Below are positions 29,231 through 34,120 of a stretch of DNA of 64,000 nt, piece by piece (position 1 is the first letter of the stretch; each line of letters starts with the position of its first letter). The DNA is taken from positions 62,001 through 126,000 of the forward strand of contig NZ_JARIBH010000019.1 in NCBI RefSeq assembly GCF_029264495.1, written 5' to 3'. The notes beneath the pieces were generated by a model. That model saw nothing but the letters and a program-made list of their open reading frames with translations, was not told the DNA's origin and searched no databases. A program made the position numbers and the translations under genes. Origin of the DNA: Peptacetobacter sp. (lineage in GTDB: Bacteria > Bacillota > Clostridia > Peptostreptococcales > Peptostreptococcaceae).

Positions 29231-29494
29231 ATGAGTATGGATAATATGGATTTCACTATGAAATTTGAAGGAGCTCAGCAAGATAAAATGACAGTTGAAG
29301 AAGCAATGGAAATAGTTTATGAGGCTCTAAAAGAGAAAGGATATAACCCTGTAAATCAAATTATAGGGTATCTCCTTTCTGGAGACTCTAGTTATATAAC
29401 TAGTTATAATGATGCAAGAGGTGTTATAAGAAAATTTGAAAGAGATGAAATTCTTGAAGAAATTATAACTAAATATTTAAAAGAAAGTAGGTAG
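29231..29494 (+). CDS. ireB: IreB family regulatory phosphoprotein (DUF965)
   Basis: An 87-residue member of the IreB/UPF0297 family. In Enterococcus, IreB is a substrate of the Ser/Thr kinase IreK and affects cephalosporin resistance. The N-terminal segment MDFTMKFEG is followed by VEEAMEIVYEALKEKGYNPVNQIIGY and LLSGDSSYITSYNDAR, the conserved body of the family. The family is encoded between alaS and ruvX in most Firmicutes. AGAGGAGG precedes the start. The next gene begins 4 bases after the stop. Confidence 0.93.
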   Translation: MSMDNMDFTMKFEGAQQDKMTVEEAMEIVYEALKEKGYNPVNQIIGYLLSGDSSYITSYNDARGVIRKFERDEILEEIITKYLKESR

Positions 29495-29498
29495 GTGA

Positions 29499-31718
29499 AT
29501 GTTCAAGAAATTTATGTCAATACTTGCATCTCTATTTATAATTTTTAGTTCTACATTTGCAAATGTAAGTGCTGAACAAACAAAAGGAAAAGTTATATTT
29601 ATTAATATGAGTAGAACTAACCTTGAAAATATGATGAGTATAAAAGAAATTAAAATGCTCCTTGAAAAAGAAGGTTATGTTGGGTTAATGAATATAAAAG
29701 GAGATCAAGGTAATGATGATGCTAGAAGTTTAGCGACTATGGGTGCAACTGGAAGATCTACAATTGCAAAATTTGATGATAAAGATGCAGTTGATTTTAT
29801 AGAACCAAATAAAGTTCAGAAAAAAGAATATGAAACATCAACAGGAAAAAAAGCTAAAAAAATAGTAAATATGGAATCAAATAGAACCTTAAATGAAAAT
29901 ATAGAAAAAGGTGAATTTGAATCAACTCTTGGAGTAGTTGGACAGGTTCTATCAGAAAATGGATATAAAACATCAGTAATAGGAAATTCAGATTACAATG
30001 ATTATAACGGAAATCTTGTAAAAAATAGAAATATTGCATTTGCAGCTATGGATAATTTTGGGAGAATAGATGATGGAAATATAGAAAATATAAATATAAA
30101 AGATACATCTATGCCATTTGGAATATCTACTGATTACAAAAAATTAAAAGAAGATACAAAAAGATTATATAAAAATACTGATGCAATATATGTAGATTTA
30201 GGTGATACATATAGACTAGACGAATATAAAATGAACCTAAATAAAAATACATATGAGAAAATGAAATTTAGAACATATTCTAGAATAAATTCATATTTAA
30301 AAGAAGTATTTTCTATGATAAATGAAAAGGATACTGTTTATATAGTTAGTGCATTTCCAAGTAATTTAGATTATAGCAATAAAAAAAGATTTTCACCTAT
30401 TATAAAATATTCAAAATCAGAAAAAGGAAAAGGTCTTTTAACATCTCCTACAACTAGAAGAGATGGAATAGTTGCTAATATGGATATTGGTGTAGATATT
30501 CTTAATAATTTTGGATTATCTAATGAGATGATGCTTGGAAGAACTATGTCAAATATCAAAAAAGAAAATAATATAGAATTTCTTGAAAAAGAATATGAAA
30601 AAATAAACTCAATAGCTCTTATAAGAGCAGGTGTTGTAAATACATTTGTTGGAGTAGTATCTGCATCTTGGGTAGCAGGATTAGTAGCAGTATTAATTTC
30701 TAAAAGAATTCCTAAAAAATATAAAGGAAAAATATTTAATATACTTAAAGAGCTTATAAAATTTGGCATAATTATGCCATTATCATTTATGATAGCTCCA
30801 ATATTTAATTTTAGCGGACAAATTAGTATGTCTATATGTGTAATAGCTGTAACATTACTGATTTATATAGTATCAAAAACGTTATTCAAAGAAGATGACT
30901 TAAAACAAATGGGATTTATTGCGTTGGTGACAATACTTTTAATAGCAGTAGATGCTGTATTTGGAACATATCTTATGAAAAATAATATAATGAGTTACGA
31001 TGCTATGGTAGGTGCAAGATATTATGGTATAGGAAATGAATATGAAGGTGTTACAATAGGAAGTGCAGTATTTGCATTTGCAGTACTTTTATATTATAAA
31101 AAAATACCAAAACTATTATCAGCTGTAGCCTTTGTTATAATACTTATAACAAGTGCCTACCCATCAATGGGAGCCAATGTTGGTGGAGCAATTTCAGAAA
31201 GTGCAGCATATATGCTATTTATACTTCTTATGTATAATATAAAAGTTGATTGGAAGAAAGCTTTGGGTATAATAGTGGCTGTTGCGTGTGTAGTAATAGC
31301 ATTTGCTTTTATGGATATTTCTTCAGGAAGTCCATCTCATTTAGGTTTATTCGTTCAACAAATAATGCTAAATGGACCTGGTGAAGTAATTCTTATGTTT
31401 ACTAGAAAAATACAGATGAATGTGAAACTTGCTCAAACTAGTGTATGGGTTAATATATTAATAGCGGGTATAGTTATAATTGCATCGCTAATATTTAAAC
31501 CTAACAAACATTTCAGATTTATTGCAGAAAAATATCCAATAGTATTTAAAGGATTTATTGCATCTATGATAGGTTGCATAATAACTTTACTAGTAAATGA
31601 TTCAGGAATTGTTGCTGCATCAACAGCATCAATTTATATATTAATACCAGTTATGGTTATAAGTATAAATATGGTTTTAAAAGATAGTGATAAGGAGAAA
31701 ATAGATGCTGACAGGTAG
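29499..31718 (+). CDS. Uncharacterised polytopic membrane protein with large ectodomain
   Basis: I do not recognise a named family. The 739-residue protein has a signal-like segment ([25 protein letters not shown]), then a hydrophilic, presumably extracytoplasmic domain to about residue 370. That domain has [10 protein letters not shown] and a MGATGRST segment, faintly like alkaline-phosphatase-fold proteins, but no complete metal site. About ten membrane segments follow (about 375-735). Between them lie short conserved-looking polar loops: [12 protein letters not shown] (about 505), [13 protein letters not shown] (about 553) and [10 protein letters not shown] (about 698). It is the only unfamiliar gene in the ireB-ruvX cluster and overlaps ruvX by 14 bases, suggesting tight coupling. 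It could be an envelope enzyme or transporter. Confidence 0.85.
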
Positions 31719-32127
31719 AATAATGGGGCTTGATATAGGAGATAGAACAATTGGTGTTGCTGTAAGTGATCTTATGGGAATGACAGCTCAAGGTGTAAAA
31801 ACTATAAAAAGAACAAGCAAAAAAAATGATATAGATGAAATAAAAAATATAATAAAAGAAAAAAATGTTAATTTAATAGTGTCTGGTCTTCCTAAAAATA
31901 TGAACGGAACAGTTGGACCACAGGGAGAAAAAGTAAAAAAATTCTGTGAGCTAATAAAAGAAGAAATCGATATAGATATAGAATTTTGGGATGAAAGATT
32001 AACGACAGTTGCCGCAGAAAAAACACTTATAACAGCTGATGTAAGTAGAAAAAAAAGAAAAAATGTAATAGATATGATGGCAGCAGTTTTAATATTACAA
32101 GGATATTTAGATTATAAAGTTAAATAA
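31705..32127 (+). CDS. ruvX: Holliday junction resolvase-like YqgF/RuvX
   Basis: A 140-residue RNase H-fold protein of the RuvX/YqgF family, implicated in 16S rRNA 5' processing and proposed as a Holliday junction resolvase. The acidic core is visible as [18 protein letters not shown], then [11 protein letters not shown], and [11 protein letters not shown] near the end, with [14 protein letters not shown] at the C terminus. AAGGAG lies about 9 bases before ATG 31705, inside the end of the preceding gene. The alaS-ireB-ruvX set is conserved in Firmicutes. Confidence 0.95.
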
Positions 32128-33124: not shown

Positions 33125-33166
33125 AAAAAGCCAATAAATCTATTAATTGATTTATTGGCTTTTTTT
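33125..33166. terminator. Bidirectional terminator between fur and the convergent gene
   Basis: AAAAAGCCAATAAATC (33125-33140) pairs perfectly with GATTTATTGGCTTTTT (33149-33164). T-runs exist on both strands, serving fur and the reverse gene ending at 33165. Confidence 0.92.
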
Positions 33167-33902
33167 ATAAGAATTTCAACATTAAATGTATGGTTACTAT
33201 AAATAAAATAAGAATAATTAAATTTTCTATTATATTACTAAACTTACCTCCGACTTTTATATATCCTAAAGAAATCATATTTTTAGAAAAAGGATAAAAA
33301 ATAGCTACACCTTGTCTTGTAAACATATCACAAATTATATGAAGTAGATACATAAAACTGGATAAAAAAGCTAAAAATTCATAATCTATTAAAATAGATA
33401 TTGGTTTCATAATTAAGTAAACTATAATTACCATAAAAAAACTATGAGAAAAATTTCTATGTCTTAGCCAAGGAAATATTGAAAAAATAATAAATGGTAT
33501 TATAAAAGATAGATTTACTTTGGCTAAAAATAAAATTATCGATAATAAAAATAAAGTTCCTGTTATAAGAGCTTTTCTCATATTATAATGTGTTATTTTT
33601 TTTTCTAAAAAAATTATAGTGAAAAAAGTTATAAAGGCACTAATAAAAAAACTGCTACTAATCTTTATTGATACTAAAAAAATTGCTATATCCAAAAAAA
33701 ATAATATCAATTTATATAAAAATTTAGAAAAGTTTTTTTTCAAAATAATGCCAGAAATTATTGAATTAGATTTATCTAAATCAGGTAATGTAGAAAATAC
33801 AGCAGATGAAACAATAGTTGTAGGAATAATAGGCTGAGAAAAAATTAATGATAATTGTATTCCAGTTATTATACCGACAGCACAATGAGTTTTACCTCGC
33901 AT
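33165..33902 (-). CDS. YdjM-like membrane-bound metal-dependent hydrolase (DUF457)
   Basis: A 245-residue integral membrane protein of the YdjM/DUF457 family, annotated as putative membrane-bound metal-dependent hydrolases. The expected metal-site residues are present: His in GKTHCAVG at the N terminus, Asp pair in TLPDLDKS, His residues in RHRNFSHSF and His/Asp in LLHIICDMF. Six or so hydrophobic segments are visible. I start it at ATG 33902, where AGGAGGTG precedes; a further in-frame ATG at 33917 overlaps this region. It is the only reverse gene between ruvX and rnj. Its substrate is unknown. Confidence 0.85.
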   Translation of the reverse strand: MRGKTHCAVGIITGIQLSLIFSQPIIPTTIVSSAVFSTLPDLDKSNSIISGIILKKNFSKFLYKLILFFLDIAIFLVSIKISSSFFISAFITFFTIIFLEKKITHYNMRKALITGTLFLLSIILFLAKVNLSFIIPFIIFSIFPWLRHRNFSHSFFMVIIVYLIMKPISILIDYEFLAFLSSFMYLLHIICDMFTRQGVAIFYPFSKNMISLGYIKVGGKFSNIIENLIILILFIVTIHLMLKFL

Positions 33903-34120
33903 TTTACACCTCCTCAATCTTATAAAAAATATATTTTATTATATCATAATAACAAAATATATTGATTAAATATAAAAAGAATTGTGAAATAAATCTGAAT
34001 TTTTTAGAGATAAAAATTGTAAAGGAGTCTAAAACTATTGAAATTTAGAGATTTTAATTAGAAATATAAAAGTAAAGAATTCTTATAGTATAAATATATC
34101 TTATATTATATTTGAAACTG

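Follow-up and report, generated by a model that had tools for sequence, protein, structure and literature searches.

What does a 739-residue membrane protein do between ireB and ruvX in a Peptacetobacter genome? The protein, which we call X, lies in a window of 64,000 nucleotides (the whole stretch of DNA that was analysed; Table 1) and matches no Pfam or NCBIfam family up to an E-value of 10, so that its description as uncharacterised in the first-pass annotation stands. The reading we prefer, with a probability of about one half, is that X is an outer-leaflet glycan polymerase or ligase of the GT-C_B type, which carries a pseudo-phosphatase domain and works in a SteAB-linked pathway for envelope glycans. 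SEDS peptidoglycan polymerases and O-antigen ligases belong to the GT-C_B structural group. The reading frame itself was called correctly: a gap of 4 bases separates it from the end of ireB (29494), and it runs 14 bases into ruvX, which starts at 31705 with the sequence AAGGAG just 5′ of the start. It is a real gene rather than a chance frame, since every one of 71 genomes from its own family has a homologue. The gene order at the locus is alaS, ireB, X, ruvX, a DUF1292 gene, a fur-like gene and an rnj-like gene, where alaS, fur and rnj are what we presume these genes to be from the look of their sequences. Further along, on the minus strand at 33165-33917, Pfam identifies a YdjM-family membrane protein, and a similar gene is found at the same place in 18 related loci. 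The signal peptide proposed for the N-terminus of X is probable, judging from the sequence and from a helix at residues 2-19 of an AlphaFold2 model in which pLDDT falls below 50 at residues 20-26, and it would be cut after the motif VSA. The earlier division of the protein into an ectodomain of some 340 residues and about ten membrane segments proved close: the two-part layout holds, with the ectodomain at residues 28-354 and with the number of segments raised to 11 by the model and hydropathy.

Table 1. Features of X and its flanking genes, with positions in the window (AF2, AlphaFold2; TM, transmembrane).
Feature	Position	Strand	Evidence
X (739-aa two-domain membrane protein)	29499..31718	+	ATG start; homologues; AF2 model
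ireB (87 aa), upstream neighbour in the window lineage	29231..29494	+	Pfam IreB, E 3.7e-35
ruvX, 14-base overlap with X	31705..32127	+	Pfam RuvX, E 3.1e-48
Probable signal peptide of X, aa 1-25	29499..29573	+	Sequence and model helix 2-19
Ectodomain of X, aa 28-354, alkaline-phosphatase-superfamily fold	29580..30560	+	VIA, hhalign, alignment columns
Membrane half of X, aa 358-739, 11 predicted TM helices, SEDS/WaaL-like (probable)	30570..31715	+	AF2, VIA, hydropathy and charges
Predicted outer loop of X, aa 500-517	30996..31049	+	R507, Y509, G510, N513, G517 in 136/136
Predicted outer loop of X, aa 555-563	31161..31187	+	P555, G558 in 136/136
Long predicted outer loop of X near the C-terminus, aa 606-649	31314..31445	+	D606 in 120/136, H614 in 136/136
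Predicted outer NDSG motif of X, aa 700-703	31596..31607	+	N700, D701, G703 in 136/136

Homologues of X were found in 85 of the 198 genomes of the order and, using a 74-sequence profile, in 237 of the 398 genomes sampled across the phylum, with two copies in Clostridioides difficile, yet the window member has neither a Pfam nor an NCBIfam model. A pattern scan derived from the alignment identified 505 relatives in a collection of genomes from 84,980 species; the best 80 were kept, corresponding to 79 distinct loci (L051-L129), and the titles of these best-scoring relatives are all Bacillota (Clostridioides, Romboutsia, Alkaliphilus, Thermoanaerobacter, Desulfotomaculum, Ammoniphilus and others). 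With L057, L061, L062, L077 and L128 dropped as near-duplicates or partials there were 79 sequences, 73 of which were aligned with the window protein (alignment A2). A scan of the same collection with peptides from a single sequence found no relatives, probably because the peptides chosen are poorly conserved. Judged from these homologues, X is a large, old family of Bacillota. Searches of Pfam, NCBIfam, PDB sequences and the open-licence literature gave no described family that joins an ectodomain of alkaline phosphatase (AP) fold to such a membrane core, nor did we recognise any paper in that literature as being on the X family. Several variants of the gene were seen along the way. The second C. 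difficile copy (at 8001-10178 in L060, L061 and L062) directly follows radA, disA, the c-di-AMP synthase gene, and a PIN-domain gene; tandem duplications of X occur in several Peptostreptococcaceae (L052, L055, L058, L065 and L076); and in one genome X is seemingly broken into two frames with stops (G022:C22:10924-13082).

A role in the envelope had originally been proposed for X from its coupling to ireB. We considered the neighbours of X in the 79 best-scoring named loci and in 40 phylum-wide loci, two counts that overlap as eight of the phylum loci appear to repeat named ones (L140=L100, L141=L098, L142=L099, L143=L107, L144=L112, L147=L103, L152=L121 and L158=L127). The ireB gene lies directly 5′ of X in 40 of the 79 named loci and in 2 of the 40 phylum-wide loci, and IreB is itself present in 116 of 119 phylum genomes, where its correlation with X is nil (phi 0.01). 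On these grounds we reject IreB as a general functional partner, and the argument from IreB to the envelope is not supported. An envelope role for X itself we judge likely, the informative partners being a GT4 glycosyltransferase and SteA. A GT4 gene directly flanks X, in the same orientation, in 26 of the 40 phylum loci (24 upstream, 2 downstream) and in 14 of the 79 named loci (8 upstream, 6 downstream), counts that refer to a cluster of neighbours built at low identity and so do not by themselves establish orthology; one of these neighbours matches Glycos_transf_1 with an E-value of 5.8e-41. GT4 is not adjacent to X in the window lineage. Another neighbour, seen in Alkaliphilus-type genomes (L085:10196-11152 and 17 other loci), is an aldo/keto reductase with 4Fe-4S motifs that lies 3′ of X, and before ruvX where ruvX is visible.

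For SteA we compared the presence of X with that of a match to the profile PF12555 in samples of genomes. Within the order, 82 of the 198 genomes have both, 3 have X only (G076, G087 and G098, all of one genus), 3 have SteA only (G139, G162 and G170, which are 91, 76 and 68% complete) and 110 have neither, for a phi of 0.94; the two order samples behind these figures appear to be the same 198 genomes, given their matching handles and counts. Without the 43 genomes that belong to the same family as the window, the counts are 39, 3, 3 and 110, with a phi of 0.90. Among 119 of the 398 phylum genomes in which X was sought, both occur in 78, X only in 4, SteA only in 2 and neither in 35 (phi 0.88), and the same list of X genomes gives a phi of 0.37 with Spo0A, which is found in 105 of the 119, and of -0.12 with Wzy_C (61 genomes). 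Spo0A and IreB are less variable and are thus imperfect controls. Against the link to SteA it counts that all these phi values come from raw genome numbers and ignore kinship, and that X occurs without SteA in four genomes of the phylum sample and in three of the order sample. This near one-to-one inheritance is a concrete, testable lead on clostridial SteAB, and hints at an undescribed surface-sugar pathway.

Four distinct loci (L103, L105, L107 and L129) have X divergent from an adjacent steA, and three of them also show SteB/MctB, GT2, Glycos_transf_4 and DUF3866 genes, while L129 ends at SteA. The contig of the window also carries that genome's steA cluster (L350:3457-8082; G000:C15), some 14-19 kb before the window starts. 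There, TlyA-like and RecN-like genes are followed by steA, steB, a GT2 gene, a WecA/MraY-like transferase gene (Glycos_transf_4) and a DUF3866 gene, in that order. Comparing the first residues of the proteins by eye shows the same order in L351 and L352, steA-steB-GT2-transferase in L353 and L355, and a cluster of similar genes without the GT2 in L354. Such clustering suggests that SteAB in these Clostridia belongs to a glycan pathway. According to PMC6705760 and PMC12977500, SteAB are cell-separation factors of Corynebacterineae; the latter notes that steA and steB are adjacent in some Clostridia, just 3′ of spo0A, a position from which it suggests a possible role in sporulation, and that the SteA pocket resembles the phosphonucleotide site of thiamine pyrophosphokinase. 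In a word search, "glycosyltransferase" was absent from PMC12977500 and PMC6705760 contained no word beginning with "glycosyl".

With an AlphaFold2 model of full-length X (mean pLDDT 92.8, pTM 0.89), both halves could be compared with known structures. The ectodomain has the fold of the AP superfamily, as VIA aligns it to the 2,3-bisphosphoglycerate-independent phosphoglycerate mutase iPGM (PDB ID: 5vpu) with a Z of 21.6 and an rmsd of 3.0 Å over 247 residues and to nucleotide pyrophosphatase (NPP) with a Z of 21.1, and Foldseek matches it, among others, to phosphopentomutase (E 2.1e-5) and to YejM/PbgA (PDB IDs: 6vat, E 2.3e-3; 6xlp, E 9.4e-3). At Pfam E-values up to 0.1, 33 distant members of the family matched SGSH_C (14), Metalloenzyme (5, the best at 4.1e-5), Phosphodiest (4) and Sulfatase (3). 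When X is aligned by hhalign to iPGM (29 of 30 sequences used), the C-terminal segment around D329 agrees with a P of 1.2e-8 and the N-terminal segment with a P of 0.002 (14% probability). The known roles of the iPGM residues orient the domain: the first metal Asp corresponds to S38 in the window protein (a column with N in 66, D in 59 and S in 6 of 136 sequences), the nucleophile Ser to D74 and the Asp-His pair to F286-P287, with Pro at 287 in 114 of the 136, and the last His is aligned to a gap. D236, which is invariant in all 136, is probably one metal Asp, going by its motif alone and not by the alignment; T319 and D329 are likewise invariant and R239 is present in 135. A two-metal site with a Ser, Thr or Cys nucleophile, as in an active AP enzyme, is not found in X. 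With most metal ligands and the nucleophile replaced, the ectodomain is best read as a pseudo-phosphatase and is probably a binder of anions; the AP-like fold with an incomplete metal site, hinted at in the first-pass annotation, is thus supported.

A degenerate domain of this kind might also make X a non-catalytic sensor or regulator of the envelope that works like PbgA/YejM: the ectodomain would bind an anionic lipid or glycan while the membrane half signals to partners, these being SteAB or, in the window lineage, IreB and its kinase. The largely lost metal ligands, the YejM/PbgA ectodomains among the Foldseek matches, the co-occurrence with the division regulator SteA and the adjacent ireB of the window lineage all agree with this, though we consider this main rival unlikely, as X is repeatedly paired with a GT4 enzyme, its outer-face polar residues (below) are kept more strictly than a pure sensor seems to need, and the transmembrane domain is N-terminal in PbgA, where X has its large transmembrane half at the C-terminus.

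For the membrane half, a model of residues 358-739 alone (pLDDT 94.4, pTM 0.93), hydropathy and loop charges are consistent with 11 helices, a C-terminus on the inner side and, at residues 609-649, an outer loop with amphipathic helices. Foldseek found nothing significant in the PDB (best E 0.057, an ABC transporter), and its top rows (ABC exporters and OCT1), with query TM-scores of about 0.10-0.19, were set aside as chance. When its top 1000 were re-aligned by VIA, the first eight entries were all RodA, FtsW or WaaL, with Z from 7.4 to 9.6 (PDB IDs: 6bar, a RodA, 9.6, 5.1 Å over 205 residues; 6bas, 9.0; 8bh1, 8.5; 6pl6, 8.2; 8p1u, 8.1; 6pl5, 7.9; 7tpg, WaaL, 7.6, 6.1 Å over 224 residues; 8tj3, a RodA, 7.4). 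The next entry was a GPCR (6.4), and lower rows contained designed proteins, PglB (5.0), AftA (4.9) and AftB (4.5). Helical proteins with a Z below about 13 may share only a common arrangement, and so a SEDS/WaaL-like (GT-C_B) fold is, on this model, probable only.

Profile comparison gave a weaker version of the same answer. X aligned by hhalign to Wzy_C scores 35.6 (P 8e-4, 301 columns), a weak signal that was kept in 3 of 5 random subsets of 18 of the 30 Wzy_C sequences and fell to background in the other 2 (24.3 and 22.3); with the 136-sequence alignment of X the score is 34.0 over 72 columns. The controls were MFS (18.4), MurJ (25.3), UbiA (13.7), GT4, reversed alignments (at most 23.8) and six clusters of polytopic neighbours, of which one was the UbiA set and the other five reached at most 19.0. 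SEDS gives 24.9, or 29.3 with the larger X alignment, which is near MurJ, while the known pair of SEDS and Wzy_C gives 63.1. X has no match to PF01098 (SEDS) up to an E-value of 10, and this family is absent from the Pfam families listed for the homologue sets A1 and A3; searches of PDB sequences with the whole X alignment or the transmembrane half were uninformative. The window genome has one SEDS protein and no Wzy_C protein in an assembly that is 94% complete.

In addition to the conserved residues in Table 1, R376 and K637 are invariant in the 136 sequences, and D485 (135), R636 (133) and E514 (133) nearly so; in the GIGNEYEG loop G512 is found in 134, and in the loop at 555-563 N560 in 125 and G562 in 132. 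The three polar loops that had been singled out as a possible active site are therefore conserved across homologues in the manner expected of one. R507-N513, P555-G558, H614, K637 and N700-D701 are predicted to lie outside, and R376 and D485 in or near helices. A survey of glycosyltransferases that use lipid diphosphates (PMC10920833) describes a clan GT-C1, made up of SEDS proteins, O-antigen ligases and some polymerases, whose conserved residues lie on the outer side, with an extended extracellular loop close to the C-terminus that bears some of them, and with one or two conserved Arg together with a conserved Asp, Glu or His. X fits this description: R507, Y509, N513, P555, H614, K637, N700 and D701 are predicted outside, the loop at 609-649 carries H614, R636 and K637, and R507, R636, H614 and D701 supply the Arg and acidic or His residues, by conservation rather than by spatial match to WaaL. 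The segment at 500-517 is also what hhalign pairs, weakly, with the R..N segment of Wzy_C. PMC10920833 also reports a match of WaaL to a model of GT126, an accepted clan member, at 5.3 Å over 192 residues; the match of modelled X with WaaL is similarly loose.

Conserved polar outer loops on a multi-helix core, in a context of cytoplasmic glycosyltransferases, could also mean that X serves to flip or transport a lipid-linked glycan, with no transfer of sugar. We find this other main rival rather improbable: Pfam models of MurJ and MFS do not match X, the hhalign scores for both are those of the controls above, MurJ-family proteins are abundant, in 35 of 36 sampled genomes, and the conserved polar residues are mostly in predicted outer loops instead of running through the membrane. 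That X transfers a phospho-group, like LtaS, EptA and the eukaryotic GPI-ethanolamine-phosphate transferases, with an AP domain active by another route, is very improbable given S38, D74, F286-P287 (mostly Pro at 287) and the gap opposite the last His, in spite of the strong match to the AP fold, the first metal Asp retained in 59 of 136 members and an LtaS (PDB ID: 2w8d) in the list from the PDB profile search (E 0.21).

The GT-C_B polymerase or ligase reading thus rests on the top VIA entries, the GT-C1-like architecture, the Wzy_C score, the adjacent GT4, the co-occurrence with SteA and the genes of the steA cluster, and against it stand the lack of a significant Foldseek match, the low Z, the fragile Wzy_C signal, a SEDS score near that of MurJ, the lack of an adjacent GT4 in the window lineage, and genomes that have X but lack SteA. 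In the pathway we propose, the two enzymes encoded beside steAB, the WecA/MraY-like transferase and GT2, would join with the GT4 that neighbours X in many lineages to build a glycan linked to undecaprenyl (pyro)phosphate in the cytoplasm, and a flippase would bring it to the outside. There R507, R636 and K637 of X might bind the diphosphate and H614 or D701 in the outer loops activate the acceptor, such that X either polymerises the glycan or passes it to an acceptor at the surface. The pseudo-phosphatase domain may hold or gate an anionic donor or acceptor through D236, T319, D329 and R239, and SteA and SteB would direct this reaction to where the cell divides. That X is catalytic, what its donor and acceptor are, which parts its residues play and that it acts at the septum are all inferred, and the full version, an undescribed undecaprenyl-linked envelope glycan of Clostridia and relatives that X assembles at the outer face under septal organisation by SteA and SteB, is put forward tentatively. 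If X is such an enzyme, this points to an envelope polymer that is absent from current descriptions of these bacteria, the SEDS/WaaL group gains a family, a GT-C_B family with a pseudo-phosphatase domain being new, and the clostridial SteAB system gains a function in glycan assembly.

X shares something with each of several known systems. The GPI-ethanolamine-phosphate transferases (PIGN/Mcd4) have an N-terminal segment, an AP ectodomain and a multi-helix C-terminal half, which is the domain order of X, but no PigN match is listed by Pfam for X and its metal site is lost. PbgA/YejM likewise places an extracytoplasmic AP-fold domain, with a site degenerate by analogy, on a membrane protein; there an N-terminal transmembrane domain is followed by the periplasmic domain, the reverse of X (AP at 28-354, transmembrane at 358-739), which on this ground does not belong with PbgA, and LPS is not expected in most of these Bacillota. 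The iPGM/alkaline phosphatase superfamily has the fold of the ectodomain and aligns at the C-terminal motif around D329, whereas X has other residues at the nucleophile and at most metal positions, and its domain is predicted to be extracellular and is fused to a membrane core. SEDS proteins (RodA/FtsW; PF01098; GT119), which act with a separate PBP partner, are the best VIA matches of the membrane half, but X falls outside PF01098, its hhalign scores with them are near background and its AP-fold domain is part of the same chain. The modelled X resembles the O-antigen ligase or Wzy_C superfamily (PF04932; GT121; WaaL, PDB ID: 7TPG) in the arrangement of its helices, in outer-face residues that are conserved, in an extended outer loop close to the C-terminus and in a weak collinear profile alignment that is not robust, and differs from it in having no match to PF04932, an N-terminal pseudo-phosphatase domain of about 330 residues and conserved motifs of its own.
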